DNA from: a virus
IMG/VR virus record: IMGVR_UViG_3300018422_000005
Location: 1 to 39,261 of that record
Direction: 5' to 3' (one strand)
DNA: 39,261 nt
A program made the position numbers and the translations under genes. How positions within the stretch are numbered: the first letter of the stretch is position 1; each line of letters starts with the position of its first letter. Below are positions 29,139 through 38,943 of this stretch, in pieces. The notes beneath the pieces are model-generated. The model was not told where the DNA came from and ran no database searches. It saw only the letters and a list, made by a program, of their open reading frames with translations.

Positions 29139-29501
29139 CTAATCGGTGTCGGTGTTACCCGCGCTGTACCGCCACTGTTCTCGGATTTTCCTGTCCGCTA
29201 GGTCCTCGACCGGCACCAGCTTCGCGAGGCCGTGCTTCGTGTACATCCGCACCGCGGCCATGAGCTTCCGCGCGTCCTCGACCTGCTCCGCGGTCGGGCG
29301 CGGGATCTCGACCAGCAGCGCGGCAGCGGCGCCGCATCCCTGACACGTGAGCGCGTCGGCGCGCGTGGTCATGTGCGCCTGCTTGGCGGTCATCTTGGGC
29401 GGGCGGTCGTCGACGTCGTGGCGGATCTTGCCGTCGACGCACGGGTGCCAGCGGCCGGGCCGGCGCGCGTTGCCGCAGTCGGGGCAGAGGGAGCTGGTCA
29501 C
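29139..29501 (-). CDS. small zinc-ribbon protein, last gene of the leftward operon
   Basis: A 120-residue product. GTG 29501 overlaps the upstream gene's stop (GTGA). An N-terminal zinc motif (SLCPDCGNARRPGRWHPCVD) and a second CxxC (TCQGCGAAAAL) lie before a helical C-terminal half (TAEQVEDARKLMAAVRMYTK). The two CxxC pairs could hold one zinc. Such proteins are often nucleic-acid- or RNA-polymerase-binding in phages, but no family is recognised. Confidence 0.6.
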   Translation of the reverse strand: MTSSLCPDCGNARRPGRWHPCVDGKIRHDVDDRPPKMTAKQAHMTTRADALTCQGCGAAAALLVEIPRPTAEQVEDARKLMAAVRMYTKHGLAKLVPVEDLADRKIREQWRYSAGNTDTD

Positions 29502-29839
29502 GCGTCGGGCTCCTGCGTCCGGTCGCGCTCCTCGAACGCGGGGCCACCCACCTGGCGCCGCCACTCCACGCGCAGCATCTGGACCAGATCGGGCAACGCG
29601 CCCTGCGGTGCCGCCACGCGGAACATGCGCACCAGCATCCCGAGCAGATGGAAGAGCACGATGCCCGAGCTGCCCTTCACGACGGTCGCCAGAATCGACG
29701 AGCTGGCGGCGATCAGCACGAGCGCGGGATCCTCGAGCCGGGTCTTCTGCAGTTCGGCCCACGCGCGGTCGCCGTGGCTCATCGCGATCGGCGTGAGCTT
29801 GCCCGTCACGCGCAGCGTCTTCTCGCGGTCGACGGCCAT
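29498..29839 (-). CDS. hydrophobic helical protein of the leftward operon
   Basis: A 113-residue product, ATG 29839 (ATGA overlap). Residues about 40-75 are hydrophobic (DPALVLIAASSSILATVV; GIVLFHLLGMLVRMF), possibly one or two membrane-inserting helices, followed by a charged tail. A membrane-acting toxin, exclusion protein or soluble helical bundle are all possible. Nothing visible decides between them. Confidence 0.6.
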   Translation of the reverse strand: MAVDREKTLRVTGKLTPIAMSHGDRAWAELQKTRLEDPALVLIAASSSILATVVKGSSGIVLFHLLGMLVRMFRVAAPQGALPDLVQMLRVEWRRQVGGPAFEERDRTQEPDA

Positions 29840-30504
29840 CAGGCGCTCCGCTCCCCGCACAGGCCGACGTGGTCGTCGAGGCGGCGCTCCAGCGCGTCGA
29901 TCCGCTCGTGTAGCTCCTCGAGCGCGGCGTCGCTGCTCGGCCCCACGACGCGCAGCCCCGCGTTCGGCCACAAGCCCGCGTCGCGGAGCGGCACGGTGAC
30001 CTCGCCCTTCGCCGCCTCCATCCGCGCGAGCAGCCGGTTGGCCTGGGTCGCGATCGGGCCGGGGTCGGTGTCGCGCAGCACCGCCGGCCTGTTCCCCCCG
30101 AGCCACGTCACGCGCAGCATGCCGTCGGGGTCGATCGCAGCCGAGAAGGCGGCGCCGTTCACCGCGAATTCCTGGGGCTCGCCCGCGGTGAGGATCGCGA
30201 TCCGGCGCCGCAGCTCGTCGCGCTCGGCGGTGAGGTCTGTCAGCTCGTTGACGACGTCCCTGAACTCCGCGCTGGACAGCGCGAGCGAGCGCCAGTCATT
30301 CTCGCGCGCGGCGAGGACCTTGCCGATGATCGGCGCCACGCGGTCGCTCGTCGGTCGCGTCGGATCCGGGCGCGCGACGTAGCGCGCGAGGATCCAGTCC
30401 GCGACCTGCCGCAGCACGATCGATCCCTCGGGAAAGAACTCGCCAAGGTCGCCGGCCTCCGCCAGCTTCCGCGCCAGCGCCTCGACGTCGGTAGGGTCGC
30501 TCAT
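29839..30504 (-). CDS. two-part hypothetical protein of the leftward operon
   Basis: A 221-residue product from ATG 30504 (ATGA overlap). Residues 1-60 are helical (DVEALARKLAEAGDLGEFFP). Residues 75-105 and 195-220 are coiled-coil-like (FRDVVNELTDLTAERDELRR; EELHERIDALERRLDD). Between them is a beta segment (AAIDPDGMLRVTWLGGNRPA). Coiled coils at both ends of a small beta domain suggest an oligomer. No enzymatic motif is visible and no family is recognised. Confidence 0.6.
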   Translation of the reverse strand: MSDPTDVEALARKLAEAGDLGEFFPEGSIVLRQVADWILARYVARPDPTRPTSDRVAPIIGKVLAARENDWRSLALSSAEFRDVVNELTDLTAERDELRRRIAILTAGEPQEFAVNGAAFSAAIDPDGMLRVTWLGGNRPAVLRDTDPGPIATQANRLLARMEAAKGEVTVPLRDAGLWPNAGLRVVGPSSDAALEELHERIDALERRLDDHVGLCGERSA

Positions 30505-30782
30505 CGCATCAGCTCCCTGTGCAGGCCGACGTGCACCGCGTGCGTGTCCTCGTGGAAGACGTGGCAGCGCCCGCAGTAGCGCTGCTCCACGTCGTTCTGG
30601 TTGTACGACGTGAGCCCGCAGCCGTTGCAGCGGATCGCGGGCAGCGGGCCGTCGATCAGCGTGTACCGCATCGAGCGCACGTGCTCGGTCAGGTGCGCGA
30701 GGATTGCGTCGCGCGCCTGCTCCGGTGACACCTCGGGCTCCGGCGCGAACAGCGACCGCAGCCAGCGAACCAGCCGGATCAA
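30501..30782 (-). CDS. small zinc-ribbon protein of the leftward operon
   Basis: A 93-residue product from TTG 30782, the only start forming the operon's standard 4-base overlap (TTGA). Amphipathic N terminus (IRLVRWLRSLFAPE), then IRCNGCGLTSYNQNDVEQRY and CGRCHVFHED, a four-cysteine zinc ribbon I recognise from small uncharacterised phage and bacterial proteins (CxxCG...HYCGxCHVF). It probably binds nucleic acid or a protein partner; the role is unknown. Confidence 0.65.
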   Translation of the reverse strand: MIRLVRWLRSLFAPEPEVSPEQARDAILAHLTEHVRSMRYTLIDGPLPAIRCNGCGLTSYNQNDVEQRYCGRCHVFHEDTHAVHVGLHRELMR

Positions 30783-31066
30783 GCCGCCGCCTCCTTGTGC
30801 ACTTCGTGCACGCCCACCGCCAGCTCGAGCCCGATCCCCTGGCGCATCAGGTCCGTGATCCGCGCCAGCGAGAAGCGCTCGCCCTCGACCGCGTGGTACT
30901 CGTGCAGACCACCGACGTAGTCGACGACGCGCGCGATCGTCTGCGCGCTGTTCAGCGCCACCAGGCACTGCCCGCGCTTCAGCGAGCGCGCCTTCTTGCC
31001 CTGCAGCAGGTCGTGCTTCGTTCGCATGTCCTGGTTCTCGATCAGGTGGACCATCCGGCACTTCAT
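30779..31066 (-). CDS. hypothetical protein of the leftward operon
   Basis: A 95-residue product from ATG 31066 (ATGA overlap). It begins with a basic part (KCRMVHLIENQDMRTKHDLL; GKKARSLKRGQCLVAL). Next come NSAQTIARVVDYVGGLHEYH and SLARITDLMRQGIGLELAVG. The pattern is mixed alpha/beta with no known motif. A longer reading from 31318 exists but runs antiparallel through the repeat-containing end of the upstream gene, so the overlap start is preferred. Confidence 0.6.
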   Translation of the reverse strand: MKCRMVHLIENQDMRTKHDLLQGKKARSLKRGQCLVALNSAQTIARVVDYVGGLHEYHAVEGERFSLARITDLMRQGIGLELAVGVHEVHKEAAA

Positions 31067-31665
31067 CCGGTGTTGCCTTTCAAGTCTGCACCGCACTGCG
31101 GGCAGAAGTTCAGAGACCGGAAAGATTGCAGATTCGCACCGCACTGCGGGCAGAAGTTCAGCGAGGTCTTGCGGGAGCGGGGAGCGTTCGCGATGGCGCG
31201 GGAGTTCGAAGGGCGGGGCACGCCGCCTGCGCGGGTGATCGGCTCGGTCGGAAGGGAGAGCTGACCGTTTGTGGGCGGCGCCGCTAGATCGCCGGCAATC
31301 GCGGGGTTCGTGACCCAAGATGAGAGCGTGGATTCAGCGATGCCAGTCTCCTTGCTGATGGCCCGCTGGGTGGTCTCGCCAGCGAGCACGCGCGCGACAA
31401 CGGCGCGCTTCGTCTCGAGCGAGTGGCTGGTGTAGCCACGGTTGCTACGAGTCGAGTTCCAGCCGCGCGCCGCGCGCGCCGCGTCTCCATCGTACGCCGG
31501 GTCGCCGCCGAGCCTCGGATTCATGAGCCAGCGGCGCAGCGTCGTGGCGTCGATCTCGATGTCTCGCGCGACGTGGGCCGCCACCTCGCCGGCCAGCACG
31601 CGCGCAACGACGGCGCGGCGGGTCGCTTCGTCGATCTCGCGGCGCTTGTGGCGCTTGCGGGTCAC
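31063..31665 (-). CDS. double helix-turn-helix, double CPxCG regulator
   Basis: A 200-residue product from GTG 31665 (GTGA overlap). It contains two related HTH units: residues about 13-50 (TRRAVVARVLAGEVAAHVAR, TTLRRWLMNPRL) and 83-122 (TKRAVVARVLAGETTQRAIS, STLSSWVTNPAI). Each resembles transposase- or resolvase-type HTH domains. The C terminus has two nearly identical zinc half-motifs (SLNFCPQCGANLQ and SLNFCPQCGADLK; Cys172, 175, 188, 191). It has no nuclease or recombinase residues, so it is not a transposase but a DNA-binding protein, probably a regulator made by internal duplication. It is the second gene of the leftward operon, next to a shared operator region. The longer frame from 32133 is a shadow. 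Confidence 0.75.
   Translation of the reverse strand: MTRKRHKRREIDEATRRAVVARVLAGEVAAHVARDIEIDATTLRRWLMNPRLGGDPAYDGDAARAARGWNSTRSNRGYTSHSLETKRAVVARVLAGETTQRAISKETGIAESTLSSWVTNPAIAGDLAAPPTNGQLSLPTEPITRAGGVPRPSNSRAIANAPRSRKTSLNFCPQCGANLQSFRSLNFCPQCGADLKGNTG
31088..31161 (+). repeat. 26-bp direct repeat encoding the duplicated zinc motif
   Basis: Identical 26-base copies lie at 31088-31113 and 31136-31161, offset by 48 bases (16 codons). They begin GCACCGCACTGCGGGC on the plus strand. They encode LNFCPQCGA twice on the minus strand. The exact identity at synonymous positions indicates a recent duplication or conversion. Confidence 0.85.
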
Positions 31666-31856
31666 GAGGCGCGCTTCTTGCGCCTCGGCTGCGGCTGGCG
31701 CTCCACCTCGGCGTCTGCCAGGTCGCGGAGCCATGCTGCCGCCGACTTGCCGGCGGCGCTCGCCACGGCGGTGTAGCGCTCTTTCTCGTCCAGTCGGACT
31801 GGAACCTTGATGATCTCGTCGCGGGAGGCTCCCGCGGGGAGGGCGTTTCTGGGCAT
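31662..31856 (-). CDS. ribbon-helix-helix repressor candidate
   Basis: A 64-residue product from ATG 31856. Residues about 14-53 match the Arc/CopG ribbon-helix-helix pattern: strand EIIKVPVRLD, helix KERYTAVASAAGKS, helix AAAWLRDLADAEVE. A basic tail ends RKKRAS. Such dimers bind short palindromic operators through the strand. It is the first gene of the leftward operon and lies next to the divergent promoters, as autorepressors usually do. The proposed -10 box ends six bases before the ATG, so the message may be leaderless, as for lambda cI from PRM. No ribosome site is visible upstream. Confidence 0.75.
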   Translation of the reverse strand: MPRNALPAGASRDEIIKVPVRLDEKERYTAVASAAGKSAAAWLRDLADAEVERQPQPRRKKRAS

Positions 31857-31862
31857 GGGGCG

Positions 31863-31891
31863 AGCCTACCGGGGGGCCAAAGGTTTGTCCA
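31863..31891 (-). promoter_or_regulatory. leftward promoter candidate
   Basis: Read on the minus strand: TGGACA (5 of 6 of TTGACA, 31891-31886), a 17-base spacer, then TAGGCT (31868-31863). The spacer contains CCTTTGGCC, the same motif as in the opposite promoter. Initiation about seven bases later would fall at or next to the ATG of the ribbon-helix-helix gene. Confidence 0.5.
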
Positions 31892-31961
31892 GTTCGGGCC
31901 CGCGGCGGCCGAAGAGGGCCCTGTGACACCGCTTGACGTTTGGCCAAAGGAATGGCCAAAT
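31875..31961. promoter_or_regulatory. GGCCAAA operator set shared by divergent promoters
   Basis: GGCCAAAGG occurs at 31875-31883 (inside the leftward promoter spacer) and at 31942-31950 (inside the rightward spacer). A third GGCCAAA lies at 31954-31960. The two rightward copies are palindromic or nearly so (TTTGGCCAAA). This is the arrangement expected of a bidirectional switch controlled by one dimeric repressor, for which the adjacent ribbon-helix-helix protein is the natural candidate. Confidence 0.5.
31933..31961 (+). promoter_or_regulatory. rightward early promoter candidate with operator in the spacer
   Basis: TTGACG (31933-31938, 5 of 6), a 17-base spacer, and CCAAAT (31956-31961) preceded by TGG as an extended -10. 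The spacer holds the palindrome TTTGGCCAAA (31939-31948), and a second copy, ATGGCCAAAT (31952-31961), covers the -10 box. The centres are 13 bases apart. A repressor on these sites would block polymerase directly. It should drive the genes from 31989 onward. Confidence 0.55.
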
Positions 31962-31988
31962 GGCGTTGTGGGGACGAAAGGGCAGGCG

Positions 31989-32342
31989 ATGACGAAGCGA
32001 GCGGCGAACGCGGTCCACTTGATCCTCGGCAACCGGCCGCTGTGTGGGGCCAAGCGCCCGAACGGTGGGCTGCACGGTGCCAAGCCTGGCAGCGGCTACG
32101 AGAGCGCAGTCGACTGCGAGCGCTGCCGAGCATCGGTGGCCCGCATGGCTCCGAAGCGCGCGCGAGAGAAGGCGAGCGACGCGACGGCGGCAGCCAGCCA
32201 GGAGATCAGCCGGTTGCTGCCGCTGCTCGACGACAAGGTGAGCCGGTCGGTCGACGCGGGGCTGAAGGGCGACTGGGGCCACGTCGGCGACCTGAACGAG
32301 ATTGTGAGCAAGCTGAAGCAGCTTGTCGGCGAGGAGGGCTGA
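31989..32342 (+). CDS. early hypothetical protein with Cys motifs
   Basis: A 117-residue product. ATG 31989 lies just downstream of the promoter and has GGGCAGG before it; the longer in-frame GTG at 31923 would start upstream of the promoter. The N-terminal part (VHLILGNRPLCGAKRPNG; SAVDCERCRASVAR) has a zinc-like CxxC. The C-terminal part is helical (EISRLLPLLDDKVSRSVDAG; LNEIVSKLKQLVGEEG). As the first rightward early gene it may be a regulator; no family is recognised. Confidence 0.65.
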   Translation: MTKRAANAVHLILGNRPLCGAKRPNGGLHGAKPGSGYESAVDCERCRASVARMAPKRAREKASDATAAASQEISRLLPLLDDKVSRSVDAGLKGDWGHVGDLNEIVSKLKQLVGEEG

Positions 32343-32344
32343 CC

Positions 32345-32656
32345 ATGACGAAGACGGTGGGACGGGGCGACGCGGCGAGCAACAGCATGCTCGCGGACCT
32401 TCGGGCGGCGCGGGCGGTGCGGCGGGCGACGAAGCGGGCGGAGCAGCACGGGCGCCAGGGATTCGAGCTGGGATTCGCGGCGAGCGACAACCCGCACACG
32501 GCGGGCACGCCCGAGGCGGCGGCTTGGGAGCGGGGGTGGGAGGATCAGCGCAACTGCAGCGACGAGGCGATGCTGCAGCGGCGGGTGCGCGCGATCGAGC
32601 GCAACGAGCAGGACGCCCTGCCCCCGCACAGCCCCTGGGCGAAGGGGGACGCCTGA
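32345..32656 (+). CDS. early hypothetical protein
   Basis: A 103-residue product from ATG 32345, two bases after the previous stop. Arg/Ala-rich helix (ADLRAARAVRRATKRAEQHG), then FELGFAASDNPHTAGTPEAA and AAWERGWEDQRN, and a polar tail. The GxxxGTPEAxAWERGW part resembles small ribosome modulation factor-like pieces seen in phages (single Trp, Gly-rich turn). No firm assignment is possible. Confidence 0.55.
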   Translation: MTKTVGRGDAASNSMLADLRAARAVRRATKRAEQHGRQGFELGFAASDNPHTAGTPEAAAWERGWEDQRNCSDEAMLQRRVRAIERNEQDALPPHSPWAKGDA

Positions 32657-33087
32657 TGCCGATGAACAGACCGACCACGGTGCGCCTCGGTGAGCGCCAG
32701 AAGGACGCGCTCTCGTCGCTTGTGCGCGAGGGCAGCTTCCGCCACGGCGGGCACTGGACGATCGGCACCCGCAGCATCGCTCAACGCATAATGGAGTCGC
32801 TCGAGCGCGCGGGCATGGCGCGCAAGCAGGGCAGGATCTTGATGCCGGCCACCCGGCGCGGCGAGGCGCGCTCGGTGACGGAGTGGGTCCCGACCGACGA
32901 GGGCCGCGCGCTCGGCGAGTCCTGGGAGGCCGAGCGCAAGCGCCGACGCGCAGAGAACGACCGCGTGTGTGCGGAGATCGCCCGGAAGGCTCGCCCCGGG
33001 CAACTGCGCGCACAGATCGCGTATCTCACGAAGCAACTGGCCGAGGCAGAGGCGGAGCTCGCCGGCCTCGATGAGGGGGACGCCTGA
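32656..33087 (+). CDS. winged-helix-like early protein with coiled-coil tail
   Basis: A 143-residue product from ATG 32656 (TGATG junction). Residues 8-95 read like a winged helix: RLGERQKDALSSLVREG, RSIAQRIMESLERAGMAR, then a wing and VPTDEGRALGESW. Residues 95-140 form a charged coiled coil (LRAQIAYLTKQLAEAEAELA). It could be a MarR-like DNA-binding regulator or a structural helper of the recombination genes. The fold is inferred from pattern only. Confidence 0.6.
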   Translation: MPMNRPTTVRLGERQKDALSSLVREGSFRHGGHWTIGTRSIAQRIMESLERAGMARKQGRILMPATRRGEARSVTEWVPTDEGRALGESWEAERKRRRAENDRVCAEIARKARPGQLRAQIAYLTKQLAEAEAELAGLDEGDA

Positions 33088-33443
33088 TGAACGTCAACGC
33101 GTACCTGCTCGTGCAGGTGGTCATCGACGAGGTGCGCCGCAAGCCTGCGCTGCTCGATCTTCCGCTGAGCGGCGTGCTGGACGCGATCTACCGCGCTTGC
33201 CCGCCCGGCGTGCATCTCGAAGGCGGCCCGCTTGCCTTCTGTCTGCGGCAGGAGTTCGGCACGCTGCTGCGCAAGTACCGCGCGCTCGAAGAGGTGGAGA
33301 CTGACGATGATGAGGCGATTTGTCACTGCGGCCACGCGAAGGCGTGGCACATGGCCGAGCGCTGCTTGGTGAACGCTTCCGACATGTCGCAACCGCGCTG
33401 CGGTTGCGAGGGATTCACGCGAGACGAGGAGGCTACTCGATGA
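33087..33443 (+). CDS. early protein with C-terminal zinc motif
   Basis: A 118-residue product from ATG 33087 (TGATG junction). The N-terminal 70 residues form a helical domain (AYLLVQVVIDEVRRKPALLD; LAFCLRQEFGTLLRKY). The C-terminal part, EAICHCGHAKAWHMAERC and CGCEGFTRDE, is a Cys/His-rich zinc site of the kind (CxCGHxxxxH) found in small phage proteins. It overlaps the exonuclease gene by four bases, so the two are co-translated; the function is unknown. Confidence 0.6.
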   Translation: MNVNAYLLVQVVIDEVRRKPALLDLPLSGVLDAIYRACPPGVHLEGGPLAFCLRQEFGTLLRKYRALEEVETDDDEAICHCGHAKAWHMAERCLVNASDMSQPRCGCEGFTRDEEATR

Positions 33444-34357
33444 GTTTCGTACGTCTGTGCGGCACCGACGACCGCGCCGCCTGGCTGAAGGCGCGGCGCA
33501 CCGGGCTCGGCGCGTCCGAGGCGCCCGCCCTGTTCGGGATCGGATTCCGGTCCCTGCTCGAGCACTACCTAGAGAAGACCGGTGACGAGCCCGAGGGCGA
33601 TGAGCCCGAGGAGGAGAGCGAGGTGCTGCGCTGGGGGCGCCTGCTGGAGCCGCTCATCCTGAACGAGTTCTCGCGCGAGACCGGCCGGCGCGTGGAGCAC
33701 GGCGGCCAGCTCCTGCGCTCGCGCGAGCACCCCTGGATGCTCTGCACGCTCGACGCCGAGCAGTTCTGCCCGAAGCGCAAGACGCCCGGGATCGTGGAGG
33801 GCAAGGCCACGCGCTGGCTCGCCGGCGAGTGGCTCGAAGGCGAGGTGCCGCGAAGGATCTGGATCCAGGTGCAGCAGCAGCTCGCGGTGACCGGGCGCTC
33901 GTGGGGCTCGGTGTGCGTGCTGCTCTTCGGCTCGCAGTTCCTCTGGAGCGACATCGAGCGCGACGACACGTTCATCAACGAGGCGCTGATCTCGGCCGGC
34001 GCCGACTTCTGGAAGCGGGTGCAGGAGCGACGGCCGTGCCCGCCCGACGGCACCGACAGCGCGCGCAAGGCGCTGCAGCGGCTCTACCCGGAGCACGTGC
34101 CCGGGAAGGTCGTGAACCTCGGCGGGGAGCTGGTCGAGTTCGACGGCGAGCTGCAGGCGCTGGAGAAGGACGCGAAAGCGATCAAGAGCCGAATCGACCA
34201 CATCAAGCAGTCGCTCTGCATGGCCATCGGCGACGCCGAGTTCGGCGCCCTTGCCAACGGCGTCACTTACAGCCACAAACTCCAGCACCGCGGCGCGTAC
34301 ACGGCGGAGGCAACCAGCTTCCGCGTGCTGCGCCGACACGCACCGAAGGGAAGGTAG
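33440..34357 (+). CDS. YqaJ-type viral recombinase exonuclease
   Basis: A 305-residue PD-(D/E)XK nuclease of the YqaJ / lambda exonuclease family, which degrades the 5' strand of duplex ends to expose single strands for annealing. Visible motifs: RRTGLGASEAPALFG (residues 20-33), LRWGRLLEPLILNEF with Glu70, LCTLDAEQF with Asp105, IVEGKATRW with Glu120 and Lys122, and QVQQQLAVTG with Gln144-147. The C-terminal third (LVEFDGELQALEKDAKAIKS) is a helical region common in this family. It is directly followed by recT, forming a two-component recombination system like Red or RecE/RecT. ATG 33440 overlaps the previous gene (ATGA), with GAGGAGG upstream. Confidence 0.92.
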   Translation: MSFVRLCGTDDRAAWLKARRTGLGASEAPALFGIGFRSLLEHYLEKTGDEPEGDEPEEESEVLRWGRLLEPLILNEFSRETGRRVEHGGQLLRSREHPWMLCTLDAEQFCPKRKTPGIVEGKATRWLAGEWLEGEVPRRIWIQVQQQLAVTGRSWGSVCVLLFGSQFLWSDIERDDTFINEALISAGADFWKRVQERRPCPPDGTDSARKALQRLYPEHVPGKVVNLGGELVEFDGELQALEKDAKAIKSRIDHIKQSLCMAIGDAEFGALANGVTYSHKLQHRGAYTAEATSFRVLRRHAPKGR

Positions 34358-34362
34358 CCAGA

Positions 34363-35412
34363 GTGGCCGAGATGAAGAGGAAGCCCGCGCCGACGGCGCA
34401 GGGCGGTGGAAGCGGGAAGGGCCCGGAGGACGAGGACAAGAGCGGCGTGATCGCCATGCTCTCGCAGCCGAAGATGATCGCGCAGCTCCGCAACGCGCTG
34501 CCCCGGCACGTGACGCCGGAGCGGCTCACGCGCATCGTGCTCACGAACCTGCGCATGACGCCCGACCTGCAGCGGTGTACGCAGGCGTCTCTGCTCGGGG
34601 CGATCATGCAGGCGGCGCAGCTCGGGCTGGAGCCCGGCGTGCTCGGCCAGTGCTACCTCGTGCCCTACCGACGGCGCTTCCGCGATCCGAGGACCGACAC
34701 GTGGCAGGAGGAGATGCTCGCGCAGCTCATCATCGGCTACCGAGGCATGGCGCAGCTCGCCTGGCGCTCGGCGCTGGTGCGGTCGATCGCTGCGCGCGCG
34801 GTGTACGAGGGGGACTTCTTCCTCTTCGACTACGGCGAGGACACGCTACAGCACCGGCCGAACGACGAGGACGACCCGGACAAGATCACGCACGTCTACG
34901 CCGTGGTGAATACCACGAGCGGCGGGCGCCTCTGGGACGTGATGACGCGGGCTGCGGTCGAGAAGGTGCGCGGGCGGTCCGCTGCCGCTGCATCGGGCAA
35001 GAAGGGCCCCTGGGACAGCGACTACGCGGAGATGGCGAAGAAGACCGTGCTGCGGCGGCTGTTCAAGCTGGCGCCGCAGAGCGCGGAGATGCAGACCGCG
35101 CTCGGGCTCGAAGACCAGGCGGACACCGGGGACAAGCAGACGTTCGAGATCGACATCCCGATGGACGAGTACACCGTGGACCGGGCGCCTGCGGCCGGGC
35201 CGACGCCGACGGCGCCTGACGACGTGCCGACGAGGATGCAGCTCGACGTGACCATCAACGAGCGGGCGGAGGAGTTCACGAATCCGGAGCGCGCGCGCGG
35301 GCAGATCATCGCGGTGCTGGAGCGGGAGTTCGGTCCGCTGCGCGAGCTGGCGGGGGAGAAGCTGCGCGAGGCGCTGGCGGAGGCGTCGATCGTCAAGGTG
35401 GACGTTTCCTAG
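34363..35412 (+). CDS. recT: RecT-family single-strand annealing protein
   Basis: A 349-residue protein that coats the strands exposed by the exonuclease and pairs complementary sequences. Family hallmarks are clear: LTRIVLTNLRMTPDLQRCTQ, LLGAIMQAAQLGLEPGVLGQ, CYLVPYRRRF, AQLIIGYRGMAQLAWRS and TVLRRLFKLAPQS. The N-terminal 25 residues are a flexible Gly/Lys tail. After residue 260 there is a family-variable tail (NERAEEFTNPERARGQIIAV) that may bind partners. The start is GTG 34363, 5 bases after the exonuclease stop; ATG 34372 is the alternative. Confidence 0.95.
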   Translation: MAEMKRKPAPTAQGGGSGKGPEDEDKSGVIAMLSQPKMIAQLRNALPRHVTPERLTRIVLTNLRMTPDLQRCTQASLLGAIMQAAQLGLEPGVLGQCYLVPYRRRFRDPRTDTWQEEMLAQLIIGYRGMAQLAWRSALVRSIAARAVYEGDFFLFDYGEDTLQHRPNDEDDPDKITHVYAVVNTTSGGRLWDVMTRAAVEKVRGRSAAAASGKKGPWDSDYAEMAKKTVLRRLFKLAPQSAEMQTALGLEDQADTGDKQTFEIDIPMDEYTVDRAPAAGPTPTAPDDVPTRMQLDVTINERAEEFTNPERARGQIIAVLEREFGPLRELAGEKLREALAEASIVKVDVS

Positions 35413-35655
35413 ATGGCCACGCGCGCAGAGATCGAGGCCGCGCTGGCGATGCGCGAGCGGAGCGCGCTGCACGCGGTCGACTCCGGGGAGCGCAGCGACG
35501 TCGCGACGATGCGCTTTCTCCTGTCCGCCCTGCAGGAGCGGGACGAGCTGCTGCTGGAGGCGGCGCCCTACGTGGACTCTGCGACCGGCGACGGTGAAGA
35601 GGCTGGGCAGCTTGCCTTGCGCATCCGCGCGCTGCTGGAACGAGGTGGGGCGTGA
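35413..35655 (+). CDS. small helical early protein
   Basis: An 80-residue product from ATG 35413, directly abutting the recT stop. It is all helical and acidic (AEIEAALAMRERSALHAVDS; TMRFLLSALQERDELLLEAA). It is coupled to the next gene by GTGA. No motif is recognised; it may be an accessory of the recombination genes. Confidence 0.6.
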   Translation: MATRAEIEAALAMRERSALHAVDSGERSDVATMRFLLSALQERDELLLEAAPYVDSATGDGEEAGQLALRIRALLERGGA

Positions 35656-36308
35656 GCCCGTACAAGCTGTGTAAGCATGGCAAGTGGGATAGCTGCGCAC
35701 ACTGCGCCGAGCTCGCGCGCGTCCGGCGAGACATGGAGGACTGCGCGTATCAGCGCACGCTGCTCACGTCCGAGCGCGACGCCCTCCGGGCGGAGAACCA
35801 GCGCTTGGCGGACCGCATCTGCGCGTTGGAGGGCCACCCGGGCGCGCACGCCGCTTGGCCGGTCTGTACGTACCAGCGCGAGCGCGACGCCCTGCGGGCG
35901 GAGCTGGAGCGCTTCACGCGCATGGTATCCGAGGGCTCGGTCGAGCTGGCGGCGCAGGTCGCGCACACGCTGGCGGCAAGGCGGGATGCAGACGCCCTGC
36001 GGCAGGAGATGGAGCGAGCCAAGGCGTCCGCCGTCTGGCAGCGCAACGCTCGGCTCCGCGTGCGCTGCAGCGACGAGGCAGGAATCTACGAGTGCGCCCA
36101 CGACAAGCCGTGCGAGATGTGCGTCCTGCGGGCGCTGGTCGCGGAGCTGGAGGCCGCGCTGAGGCCGTACCTCGTCGGCGGGTGCGGCCGGTGCGACACC
36201 GAGAGCGGCGACGTGTCGATCGACTGTCACACGTACGCAGATGCGGACGAGCCGTGCACGTGCCCGTGTCACGCCGCCCGCGCCGCCCTCGGCACGGAGC
36301 GGACGTGA
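35652..36308 (+). CDS. coiled-coil protein flanked by zinc motifs
   Basis: A 218-residue product from GTG 35652 (GTGA overlap). N-terminal zinc-like start YKLCKHGKWDSCAHC; a coiled coil over residues 25-150 with ERDALRAENQRLADRICALE and ERDALRAELERFTRMV, the ERDALRAE unit occurring twice; and a Cys-rich C terminus (KPCEMCVLRALV; GGCGRCDTESGDVS; EPCTCPCHAA). I have seen similar ERDALRAE coiled-coil genes in many phages, where they vary in length and have no known function. An oligomeric scaffold or nucleic-acid-bridging role is guesswork. Confidence 0.65.
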   Translation: MSPYKLCKHGKWDSCAHCAELARVRRDMEDCAYQRTLLTSERDALRAENQRLADRICALEGHPGAHAAWPVCTYQRERDALRAELERFTRMVSEGSVELAAQVAHTLAARRDADALRQEMERAKASAVWQRNARLRVRCSDEAGIYECAHDKPCEMCVLRALVAELEAALRPYLVGGCGRCDTESGDVSIDCHTYADADEPCTCPCHAARAALGTERT

Positions 36309-36478
36309 GCGCCGAGCTCGACCGCATGGTGCTGGAGGCGCGCGACCGTTACCGCACCGCGTACACGAAGTGGATGCGCACGAAGAACGGGAGCGACGTC
36401 CAGGCGCGCGTGGACGCGCACGACGAGCTGGCAGCGGCCGAACGCGCGCTGCTGGAGATCGGGAGGAGGGAACGGTGA
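36305..36478 (+). CDS. small helical early protein
   Basis: A 57-residue product from GTG 36305 (GTGA overlap). All helix with charged faces (AELDRMVLEARDRYRTAY; DAHDELAAAERALLEIGR). Short enough to fall under usual thresholds but tightly coupled on both sides. The function is unknown. Confidence 0.5.
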   Translation: MSAELDRMVLEARDRYRTAYTKWMRTKNGSDVQARVDAHDELAAAERALLEIGRRER

Positions 36479-36660
36479 AGCTCAAGATGCTGGAGCTGGA
36501 AGTGGAGCGCGTGAACGACGTGGCGATCGAGATCCGGCAGGCGGATCCGACCGGCTGCTCCGACACGCCCATTACCATCGAGGTGACGCCCGAGCAGGTG
36601 CCGTTCCTGATCGAGTGGCTGCGCGAGGCGGCGCTCGATCGCAGGCCGGATCCGCAGTAA
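36475..36660 (+). CDS. small alpha/beta early protein
   Basis: A 61-residue product from GTG 36475 (GTGA overlap) with the strong ribosome site GGGAGGAGGG just upstream. Two beta strands (LKMLELEVERVNDVAIEI; PITIEVTPEQV) and a C-terminal helix (PFLIEWLREAAL). A small compact domain of unknown role; last gene before a hairpin-bearing gap. Confidence 0.55.
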   Translation: MKLKMLELEVERVNDVAIEIRQADPTGCSDTPITIEVTPEQVPFLIEWLREAALDRRPDPQ

Positions 36661-36691
36661 CGCTCGCCGCGCCGCGCCCCCTCAACCTGCC

Positions 36692-36724
36692 CGCCCTCCT
36701 GCCGATGCATCGGGCAGGAGGGCG
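36692..36724 (+). promoter_or_regulatory. 12-bp hairpin that buries the next gene's Shine-Dalgarno
   Basis: CGCCCTCCTGCC (36692-36703) pairs perfectly with GGCAGGAGGGCG (36713-36724). The right arm contains AGGAGG (36717-36722), the ribosome site for ATG 36730. The 9-base loop starts with the palindrome GATGCATC. Folding would hide the site; it could also terminate the upstream transcript. The remaining bases of this 69-base gap show nothing else. Confidence 0.65.
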
Positions 36725-36729
36725 TGGGC

Positions 36730-37023
36730 ATGGCGCAGGACGGGATCCCGAACGGGAACGGGAATGGACGCTCGCCGTCGAGCACGGCCCGCCGCGCCGC
36801 GTCGCACACCGTCGTGTCGGGCCAGGTCGTCGGTGTCGCCAAGCTGCTCGAGGGATTCGGCCTCGACCCGCTGCAGGCGTACGTGTGCGCGCTCGGCTAC
36901 GGCGCCGTGATGGGCGCGGCCGGGAAGGTCGCGCGCGACGCGCTGCACGAGCACGAGACCGGCGTGGTGCGCATGGACGCGTTCGGGCTGTTCCTCGCAA
37001 ACCTGTTCGCGGCGCTCGGCTGA
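36730..37023 (+). CDS. small membrane-associated protein under hairpin control, holin-like candidate
   Basis: A 97-residue product. ATG 36730 is 7 bases after AGGAGG; GTG 36724 is in frame but too close to it. The first 25 residues are polar (NGNGNGRSPSSTARRAAS). A moderately hydrophobic segment (AYVCALGYGAVMGAAGKV) and a second amphipathic one (AFGLFLANLFAALG) follow. Two short hydrophobic helices, a hidden ribosome site and the next gene being a membrane-anchored protein fit a holin, a class that is tightly timed, but no holin family is recognised. Confidence 0.5.
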   Translation: MAQDGIPNGNGNGRSPSSTARRAASHTVVSGQVVGVAKLLEGFGLDPLQAYVCALGYGAVMGAAGKVARDALHEHETGVVRMDAFGLFLANLFAALG

Positions 37024-37220
37024 TGCGACGGCAGGTCGCGATCGGGGCGGTGTGGCTCGCGCTCGCCATGGCGTTCGGTGGCCTAGTGCTCCTCGAGCTC
37101 CAGCAGCGACGGCTCGGCTCGGCCCGCGCGGCGGTGCTGGGGCGCTGTGCGCAGCTGGATCCCGAGGAGCGCGCGTGCTGCCTGGGGCAGGTGCGGGCGG
37201 AGTACTTCGCGCCGCTGTAG
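37023..37220 (+). CDS. N-terminally anchored small protein, spanin-like candidate
   Basis: A 65-residue product from ATG 37023 (TGATG junction). N-terminal membrane span (IGAVWLALAMAFGGLVLL), then a charged helix (ELQQRRLGSARAAVLGR) and three cysteines (CAQLDPEERACCLGQV). The topology is that of inner-membrane spanins (Rz-like), but it is short and lacks a long periplasmic coiled coil. Coupling to the preceding membrane gene suggests a joint role in envelope disruption. This is a moderate inference. Confidence 0.5.
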   Translation: MRRQVAIGAVWLALAMAFGGLVLLELQQRRLGSARAAVLGRCAQLDPEERACCLGQVRAEYFAPL

Positions 37221-37225
37221 CGACT

Positions 37226-37465
37226 TCCGGCCATCGGTCGGGCTATGCTGGCCGGATCACCGAGGGGGGTGATGTTGGATTCCGCCACCGCCGTTAAAAG
37301 CGAACGGCCCCCGCCAAGGGGCCGAACGCGCATCACTCTGAGGGGCAGTGCATTCCGCGGAACGCAGCGACAGGATAGCTGCGTTCCGGCTGGGCTGTCT
37401 ACCCTTGAACGTGTCGGATCCGCTACGGGCGTAGCGCTGCACCCCCCTCGCAATTGCTGGGGGTG
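37226..37465 (+). promoter_or_regulatory. structured leader with six inverted repeats before the replication gene
   Basis: This gene-free stretch of about 240 bases carries perfect inverted repeats: TCCGGCCA-N15-TGGCCGGA (37226-37256), ATCACC-N6-GGTGAT (37256-37273), CGGCCCC-N6-GGGGCCG (37305-37324), CGGAACGCAGC-N9-GCTGCGTTCCG (37358-37388; overlapped by TTCCGCGGAA at 37353), CGCTACG-GG-CGTAGCG (37421-37436) and CACCCCC-N12-GGGGGTG (37440-37465). The last covers the likely ribosome site of the O-like gene. TATGCT at 37244-37249 is a possible -10 without a good -35. On the minus strand the third hairpin is followed by CTTTTAA, weakly terminator-like. Confidence 0.6.
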
Positions 37466-37468
37466 CTC

Positions 37469-38275
37469 GTGTCCGAGGCCGTCGTCCCGTTCGTCCAGTA
37501 CCCGGTCCATGTTCTAGAGGCGCTCGAGCAGACGCCGCTGCCCGGTCAGCACCGTCGCGTGTTCGATAGCGTGGTGCGGCTCACGATCGGCTGGCATCGG
37601 CAGTCCGATCGCATCTCGGCTGGTCAGATCAGCAAGCGGACCGGGATCCCGCGCCAGCATGTTGCGGACATGCTGGCCGACCTTGAGCGGTGGGGGCTGC
37701 TGATCGTCGAGCGCGCCGGCCATCGCCGGAAGTCGACGCTCGCCGTGCAGCACGTCGTGGAGCGGTGGCAGGTGGGCGAGACGACGCATGCCACGCGGGT
37801 GCGCCGCGGGGCATCTGCCCCTGCAGAGCGGGGCAGATCATCTGCCCCGCCAGAGCGTGACAGCCTGCCCCGCCAGAGCGTGACAGATCTGCCCCGCCAG
37901 AGCGGACACTCCAAAGAGAGAAAGAAAACCTCTGAAAGAAAGCCGGAGTTCGCTGTCGCGCTTCCGGACCGGACCCGGGAACGGCGCGTAGCCCGCTCGG
38001 TGGCAGGGCCATGGGGACACCAACCGAGACCGTCGCCCCAGGATCAGGAGCGCGCTCGTGCCGAGCTCGCCGCCTATCGCGAGACGCTGGACCGCTCGAA
38101 GCGGGCGGAGTCGAGGCGCAGGCGCGACGAGGGCACACCGATCACAGCGGAGGCGCTCGCCGTGCTCGAGCAAGCGAAGGCCGCGCGTGCGGCGAGCGAG
38201 CTCTCTGACGCCGCCAAGGCAGGCCTCGAGGGATTCTTCGGGTCCGCTGCGCTGCAGAAGGCGAGCGCGGGATGA
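37469..38275 (+). CDS. lambda O-like replication initiator
   Basis: A 268-residue protein. Residues 1-85 match the N-terminal domain of phage replication protein O: FVQYPVHVLEALEQTPLPGQ, RRVFDSVVRLTIGWHRQSDR, ISAGQISKRTGIPRQHVADM and LADLERWGLLIVER, a winged helix-turn-helix that binds origin iterons. Residues 105-150 are low complexity and are encoded by the iterons themselves. The C-terminal part is helical and charged (QERARAELAAYRETLDRSK) and would contact the helicase side. No helicase or loader gene (P, DnaC-like) is seen, so host DnaB must be recruited some other way. GTG 37469 follows GGGGG by 5 bases; GTG 37463 and TTG 37454 are alternatives. Confidence 0.82.
   Translation: MSEAVVPFVQYPVHVLEALEQTPLPGQHRRVFDSVVRLTIGWHRQSDRISAGQISKRTGIPRQHVADMLADLERWGLLIVERAGHRRKSTLAVQHVVERWQVGETTHATRVRRGASAPAERGRSSAPPERDSLPRQSVTDLPRQSGHSKERKKTSERKPEFAVALPDRTRERRVARSVAGPWGHQPRPSPQDQERARAELAAYRETLDRSKRAESRRRRDEGTPITAEALAVLEQAKAARAASELSDAAKAGLEGFFGSAALQKASAG
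37813..37945 (+). other. intragenic replication origin: iterons plus purine/AT-rich tract
   Basis: Three exact copies of CTGCCCCGCCAGAGCG start at 37842, 37865 and 37889, and a two-mismatch copy starts at 37815. The first two exact copies are followed by TGACAG. Between the variant and the first exact copy is an inverted repeat with one spacer base, CGGGGCAGAT-C-ATCTGCCCCG (37829-37849). Immediately downstream, 37909-37945 is an A-rich purine tract (AAAGAGAGAAAGAAAACC and onward), a plausible unwinding element. The layout mirrors lambda ori, which lies inside gene O with iterons followed by an AT-rich stretch. Confidence 0.78.
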
Positions 38276-38625
38276 CAGCCGCTCTCGCCGTGGAACACTC
38301 GACCGCGCACACGTTCAACGCGGCGATGCGCTGCAGGCGCTGCGGCGTGCCGTTCGACGACCGTGGTCCGACCTGCCGCGCGACGAAGAAGTGGGCCTTC
38401 CGTCGGCGCGACTCGCTGCTGCGCACCAGGCGCCGCGAGCTGCGCATGACGCAGGCCGAGCTTGGCTGGCTGCTGGGCGTCTCGGAGTACGCCGTCGCGA
38501 ACTGGGAGCGGGGCAGTGCGATCCCGTTCGGGCGCAACGCCAGGCGTCTCGAGCGCGCCCTCGGCTACCCGCTGCAGGAGCTGCTGCCCGTAGCGGCCGC
38601 ACCCGACGTCGCTGTCCCACAGTGA
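38272..38625 (+). CDS. zinc / XRE-family regulator
   Basis: A 117-residue product from ATG 38272 (ATGA overlap with the O-like gene). N-terminal zinc-like MRCRRCGVPFDDRGPTCR (Cys21, 24, 35) followed by a Cro/CI-type helix-turn-helix (residues about 46-100: RTRRRELRMTQAELGWLLGV, SEYAVANWERGSAIPF, RRLERALGYPLQELLP). It likely represses or activates phage promoters as a dimer. The gap just downstream holds two dyads, GTTGCAAC and GTTGA-N6-TCAAC, natural candidate operators. Whether it acts on the next operon or on the divergent region at 31900 is unknown. Confidence 0.8.
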   Translation: MTAALAVEHSTAHTFNAAMRCRRCGVPFDDRGPTCRATKKWAFRRRDSLLRTRRRELRMTQAELGWLLGVSEYAVANWERGSAIPFGRNARRLERALGYPLQELLPVAAAPDVAVPQ

Positions 38626-38709: not shown

Positions 38710-38943
38710 ATGGCAAAGCCAACGATCGCGGAGCTGCAGGCGCGCTTCGGACCGCACGAGCTGGACGGCGAATGCCTCGACCACGTGAGCGTGGTGAACG
38801 GGCTCGTCCTCGACCTGGCCGTCTCGCTGTGCGAAGTGGTGCCCGAGGGGCGACAGCTCTCGCTGGCGCTCACGGCGCTCGAGGAGGTCCGCATGCGCTC
38901 GAACGCGGGCATCGCCGAGCCGCTGCCGCTGGCGCGCGCCTGA
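38710..38943 (+). CDS. Acb2-like cyclic-nucleotide sponge candidate (anti-CBASS)
   Basis: A 77-residue, two-helix protein. Residues 45-69 carry PEGRQLSLALTALEEVRMRS and NAGIA, which closely fits the pattern I know for the small phage family with the Acb2/Tad1-type hairpin domain (PxSREKSLALTKLEEAxMWA, NAAIA). The N-terminal ARFGPHELDGE matches its RFxYHxP start, and the length (77) is near that of Acb2. Acb2 forms a hexamer that binds cyclic di- and trinucleotides made by CBASS immune systems and stops the effector. Substitution of the Trp (here Arg-Ser) is a difference from the common motif. The family call is from memory; ligand binding is inference. It leads a separate operon behind a regulated promoter. 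Confidence 0.6.
   Translation: MAKPTIAELQARFGPHELDGECLDHVSVVNGLVLDLAVSLCEVVPEGRQLSLALTALEEVRMRSNAGIAEPLPLARA

Follow-up and report, generated by a model that had tools for sequence, protein, structure and literature searches.

Paired TGGCCA dyads between the divergent early gene blocks of a viral contig, with a 64-residue ribbon-helix-helix-like protein as candidate autorepressor

Genes flanking the divergent gap

The window, meaning the whole stretch of DNA analysed, is IMG/VR record IMGVR_UViG_3300018422_000005, a linear contig of 39,261 bases with a GC content of about 70%. According to a codon-based gene map, with matches to terminase, portal and tail families, virion genes occupy the plus strand up to about 29.1 kb. 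A leftward block follows at 29139-31856, and a rightward block runs from 31989 to the end of the window. Between their start codons, at 31856 and 31989, lies an intergenic gap of 132 bp, slightly AT-richer than the surrounding 70% GC genome. From its setting, the gap (31857-31988) is read as the divergent control region of the phage early genes. The genes relevant to this reading are the following.

31662-31856, minus strand: first leftward gene, 64-aa putative ribbon-helix-helix (RHH; NikA/TraJ-like) protein, ATG at 31856
31063-31665, minus strand: second leftward gene, double-HTH zinc-ribbon protein (Pfam PF01527, E 3.8e-9, two stretches)
29139-31066, minus strand: five further leftward genes from the gene map, function unknown, apparently the remainder of the left operon
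31989-32342, plus strand: first rightward gene from the gene map (gene 48), 117 aa, function unknown
32345-38275, plus strand: remaining right early operon, with family matches to RMF, YqaJ, RecT and phage_O
32345-32656, plus strand: ribosome modulation factor-like (RMF-like) protein, second gene of the right operon (PF04957, E 1.8e-7)
33440-34357, plus strand: YqaJ exonuclease, by family match
34363-35412, plus strand: RecT, by family match
37469-38275, plus strand: phage_O-type (Phage_rep_O) replication initiator (PF04492, E 5e-11)
38272-38625, plus strand: XRE/DicA-like HTH protein, N-terminal CxxC pair, close to the end of the right block

Family searches with the five further leftward genes gave nothing above noise, and the homologue search with gene 48 returned short look-alikes alone. 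Initiation of gene 48 at GTG 31923 would place the right dyad described below in a coding frame; this alternative is disfavoured, as third-position GC in the upstream frame is just 0.59, versus 0.88; this low value favours the start at 31989. Rfam families were not found anywhere in the window. Folded as RNA, the intergenic strand is slightly more stable than its shuffles (z -1.84), a modest difference which does not favour a riboregulator.

The O-type initiator gene contains three internal 23-bp iteron-like repeats (37840-37908) followed by an AT-richer stretch, an arrangement taken to be a lambda-like origin. Just upstream of this gene, a possible OOP-like leftward small RNA is encoded at 37290-37401 on the minus strand. 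Its promoter, TAGACA-N18-TATCCT, is the sole 9/12 promoter in the 20-39 kb interval, and about 50-60 nt past it lies a stem-loop with a T-rich tail, the fold being no better than that of shuffles. Besides the XRE-type HTH protein, the right block encodes at 38710-38943 an Acb2/Tad1-like hairpin-domain protein (PF24729, E 2.1e-9; homologue in CP017838), likely a cyclic-nucleotide sponge directed against CBASS/Thoeris-type defence. At 1516-2691, a ParB-like domain is fused to an N6/N4 DNA methylase.

Dyads and promoter candidates in the control region

Four elements have been mapped in the 132-bp gap; the two dyads are listed without strand.

31863-31891, minus strand: left promoter candidate TGGACA-N17-TAGGCT (-35 at 31891-31886, -10 at 31868-31863)
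31933-31961, plus strand: weak right promoter candidate TTGACG-N17-CCAAAT (-35 at 31933-31938, -10 at 31956-31961)
31939-31960: O_R, perfect 22-bp dyad TTTGGCCA-AAGGAA-TGGCCAAA, filling the right spacer and overlapping the -10 in part
31874-31891: O_L, degenerate dyad copy GGGCCA-AAGGTT-TGTCCA, covering the left spacer and -35

An earlier note on this DNA had described two back-to-back promoters about 40 bases apart, with the same operator in both spacers. The hexamers are as the note gave them, the two -35 boxes being separated by 41 bases, and the repeated element GGCCAAAGG does occur once per spacer, at 31875-31883 and 31942-31950. A third copy, GGCCAAATGG, covers the right -10 (31954-31963), and TTTGGCCAAA at 31939-31948 is a perfect palindrome. 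Counting both strands, four of the five GGCCAAA heptamers of the 39-kb window fall inside 86 bp of the control region. What is repeated extends beyond the 9-mer of the note, and corresponds to an 18-22 bp dyad, TGGCCA-N6-TGGCCA; at the level of sequence, the divergent arrangement with matching elements in both spacers stands, with the dyad in place of the 9-mer as its unit. O_L and O_R are 67 bp apart centre to centre, and identical at 14/17 positions over the repeat-finder alignment. The TGGCCA subsites, two per dyad and 12 bp apart centre to centre, are each palindromic.

Allowing up to two mismatches, TGGCCA-N6-TGGCCA is found at six sites in the window, two of them in the 132 bp, where 0.006 are expected under a whole-phage model and 0.017 under a local dinucleotide model. 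At least two sites were encountered in one of 5000 local shuffles. The pattern had been taken from O_R, and the independent surprise is therefore O_L alone. It is improbable that the similar words arose by chance in a gap which is AT-richer than the rest of the genome. Such an origin would suit the broader statistics, which are marginal (p=0.06 for any 7-mer present four times, p=0.05 for the 14/17 repeat, and about 28 dyads of the O_R type expected per genome by chance); it fits poorly with the position-specific shuffles, and with the coincidence of both dyad copies with promoter elements. An equally rare 7-mer with like clustering was absent from 36 of 40 order-3 Markov copies.

Each promoter candidate scores 8/12, a level met about 0.46 times per kb per strand, and no site in the control region reaches 9/12. 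The left promoter is one of just two TTGAC(4/5)-N15-19-TANNNT sites in the window. Shuffled copies average 4.9 such sites and are thus richer in them, so that the case for this promoter is its position and orientation. Its TGGACA box doubles as the outer half of O_L; hexamer and operator consequently do not count as independent evidence. Between the left -10 and A31856, where the RHH start codon begins, lie six bases. Transcription from the left promoter, which is plausible, is predicted to begin at that A and so to yield a leaderless mRNA. The right promoter is weaker than the earlier note supposed, and has no canonical -10: CCAAAT is devoid of the T at -12 and the A at -11, the bases mattering most, and TA dinucleotides are missing between 31892 and 31988, hence 3' of the right -35. 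The right promoter is doubtful, and rightward transcription may need an activator, depend on another sigma factor, or start elsewhere.

Candidate binding proteins and related loci

The 64-residue product of the first leftward gene matches a NikA-like Pfam family (E 6.8e-5) at 23.4 bits, under the gathering cut-off of 27, and the NCBIfam TraJ family at E 3.3e-4. GC at the three codon positions of the gene is 0.71/0.55/0.85. The RHH pattern, defined as an N-terminal alternating strand, a helix, a G-x-S/T turn and a second helix (PMC2812701), can be read in the protein as IIKVPVRL, DEKERYTAVASAA, GKS and AAAWLRDLADAEV. The AlphaFold single-sequence monomer model (pLDDT 70, pTM 0.29), in which the strand is not formed, is uninformative as to the intertwined RHH dimer with its two-stranded sheet. 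Taken together, these data weakly support an RHH identity; the statement that an RHH gene comes first leftward is borne out by position and sequence pattern, the family match being sub-threshold.

Close homologues of the RHH-like protein were not found in viral contigs, phages or plasmids, nor in any of eight records having virion genes in common with the window. These searches yielded no relative combining the protein with a TGGCCA-N6-TGGCCA operator, so that co-variation of the two could not be seen, and the link between repressor and operator rests on position and geometry. Toxin families were not recognised in the left operon, where the neighbour of the RHH gene encodes the double-HTH zinc-ribbon protein. 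The latter features tandem HTH_Tnp_1-type domains and a duplicated NFCPQCGA zinc ribbon, the ribbon duplication corresponding to a repeat in the DNA at 31088-31162. It was modelled, with low confidence, as two three-helix units, and its homologue search returned zinc-ribbon look-alikes alone.

The HTH matches of the double-HTH and the XRE/DicA-like proteins are above cut-off and stronger than the RHH match, and the RHH-like protein is therefore not the sole candidate binder. An Arc/CopG-type repressor in place of a CI-type one, as earlier proposed, holds for the first-gene position, where no CI-type HTH repressor was found; the claim does not extend to the whole window, given the XRE/DicA-like gene and the second leftward gene. 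Either HTH protein might be the true ligand of the same operators, a dimer reading TTTGGCCA...TGGCCAAA as an ordinary inverted repeat with halves one helical turn apart. The placement of the double-HTH gene as second in the left operon and the relative described below, which has an HTH_3 protein in the corresponding slot, speak for this assignment, as do the above-cut-off matches. It is held to be rather unlikely, as the promoter-proximal gene is the RHH gene, palindromic TGGCCA subsites fit one RHH dimer each, a symmetry that an HTH monomer does not need, and HTH_Tnp_1 domains are mostly of the transposase type.

The relative is contig L139, which carries the closest RecT found (57% identity) and a YqaJ protein 46% identical. 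In L139, the corresponding divergent slot, preceding the early operon, is taken by a leftward XRE-type (HTH_3) gene, and the intergenic region features the dyad GTGCAAG-N6-CTTGCAC (7-bp arms, 6-bp gap). The comparison supports a regulatory role of this divergent slot, and indicates that the type of regulator in it differs between phages, although the two contigs are linked by RecT and YqaJ only. Portal alignments led to virion relatives whose early regions show no match to that of the window, and are thus uninformative on the switch. Prophages were not detected in bacterial genomes searched with the portal alignment, and the RecT search of bacterial genomes gave a single distant match, in a Sulfobacillus contig.

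A motif scan of viral contigs returned 113 stretches, mostly coding or attributable to chance. In two phage loci, L045 (5389-5904) and L047 (4099-4412), a similar gene is preceded by an intergenic TGGCCAAA cluster. The cluster in L045 neighbours a weak RHH-like gene; this locus was not counted as support because the similar L047 cluster has no neighbouring RHH gene. In three other loci, L058 (1150-1555), L074 (13530-13690) and L101 (5762-5986), TGGCCAAA clusters adjoin tyrosine integrase genes, two of which encode an arm-binding domain, and are possibly arm-type attachment sites. By analogy, the repeats in the window might lie near attP and serve a tyrosine integrase as arm-type sites, rather than being operators. 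This is very unlikely: the window has no integrase, its repeats coincide with a pair of promoter-like elements where operons diverge, and the three loci were chosen by eye among more than 100 hits.

Proposed control circuit and known systems

The reading preferred here, to which a probability of about one half is assigned, is that the RHH-like protein is an autorepressor acting on both divergent early operons. As operator copies lie on both promoter-like sequences, the protein would probably shut off its own gene and the replication and recombination genes. Each dyad would be bound by two adjacent dimers, one per TGGCCA. On the perfect O_R, presumably the stronger site, the protein would keep RNA polymerase off the right early operon, involved in recombination and replication; on the weaker O_L, sufficient amounts of the protein would repress the predicted leaderless transcript of its own gene. 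Against autorepression by the RHH-like protein stand the RHH match below cut-off, the uninformative structure model, the poor right -10, the degenerate O_L, the failure of the homologue searches to find a relative with both protein and operator, and the two rival binders. Gene order, the dyads with their positions, and their rarity are observed; promoter activity, binding by the RHH-like protein, repression and the ranking of the two affinities are inferred. The circuit may either maintain lysogeny or merely time early expression.

A stronger form of the autorepressor reading, compatible with it, is a lambda-like lysis/lysogeny decision, in which the RHH-like protein would be the immunity repressor and the right operon would supply a lytic counter-repressor. 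The lambda-like order of the region, with divergent early operons, RecE/T-type recombination and an O-type initiator with iterons, points in this direction, as does the tyrosine integrase of CP017838, a distant relative having terminase, portal and capsid genes in common with the window. The missing integrase, already remarked upon in the earlier note, was confirmed: neither PF00589 nor PF00239 is matched in the window, so that tyrosine and serine recombinases are both absent from a contig which may be incomplete. No Cro-like gene was found to open the right operon, the first three rightward proteins having no HTH family match. Taken alone, one autorepressor acting at two promoters does not give bistability, and a plain early-gene autorepressor would give an identical picture. 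With no integrase, no cro-like partner on the right and no demonstrated temperate relative carrying this switch, the phage decision circuit of the earlier note is not upheld, and the lambda-like decision is regarded as doubtful.

Features of the autorepressor reading recur in known systems. In the immI region of P22, Arc and Mnt are RHH repressors of divergent phage promoters, with an operator located within the promoter; immI is a secondary immunity region, and controls the antirepressor. The window resembles immI in its putative RHH repressor, its divergent phage promoters and the operator inside the promoter. It differs in that the RHH-like gene is at the divergence of the early operons, and no antirepressor was matched among the early proteins scanned.

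The cI genes of lambda and of PY54 have leaderless repressor mRNAs (PMC4488713). Their cI-cro regions and the window have in common a divergent early region, repeated operators on both promoters, a leaderless repressor mRNA (predicted here) and an O-type initiator downstream. In contrast to the three tandem sites per promoter of lambda and PY54, one dyad is found on each promoter candidate in the window, where the first gene is RHH-like and the contig contains neither cro nor integrase.

MobC of plasmid RA3 is an RHH protein which autoregulates via one palindrome between -35 and -10 (PMC4175270). The window is similar in having an RHH-like protein of the mobilization-protein kind, and a single palindromic operator between the -35 and -10 of its own gene; MobC belongs to a plasmid transfer operon with a relaxase, whereas here phage early genes and two divergent promoters are involved, and no relaxase is present. 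With RHH repressors, each palindromic subsite receives one dimer; RelB, which has a G-X-S/T/N turn, binds as dimers to abutting 12-bp half-sites (PMC2812701). RelB/relO and the window are alike in the turn and in palindromic subsites at 12-bp centre spacing, the RHH dimers being a proposal for the window. RelB/relO differs in serving toxin-antitoxin autoregulation, in half-sites that abut and in sequence; the left operon here holds no recognised toxin.

More tentatively, the primary early (immunity) switch of a lambda-organised phage could be controlled by an RHH autorepressor of minimal size (64 residues), with a leaderless mRNA and two graded dyads as sole operators, replacing the CI-type repressor found in the same slot elsewhere; this fuller description is judged unlikely. 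If the RHH-like protein is the binder, early switches can exchange both the operator and the whole repressor fold while the layout is kept, as an XRE-type regulator in L139 and an RHH protein here would each act on a dyad of its own between like operons. Protein and dyad would form a natural repressor/operator pair of very small size, and the locus would join P22 Arc/Mnt as another phage example of divergent promoters under RHH control.
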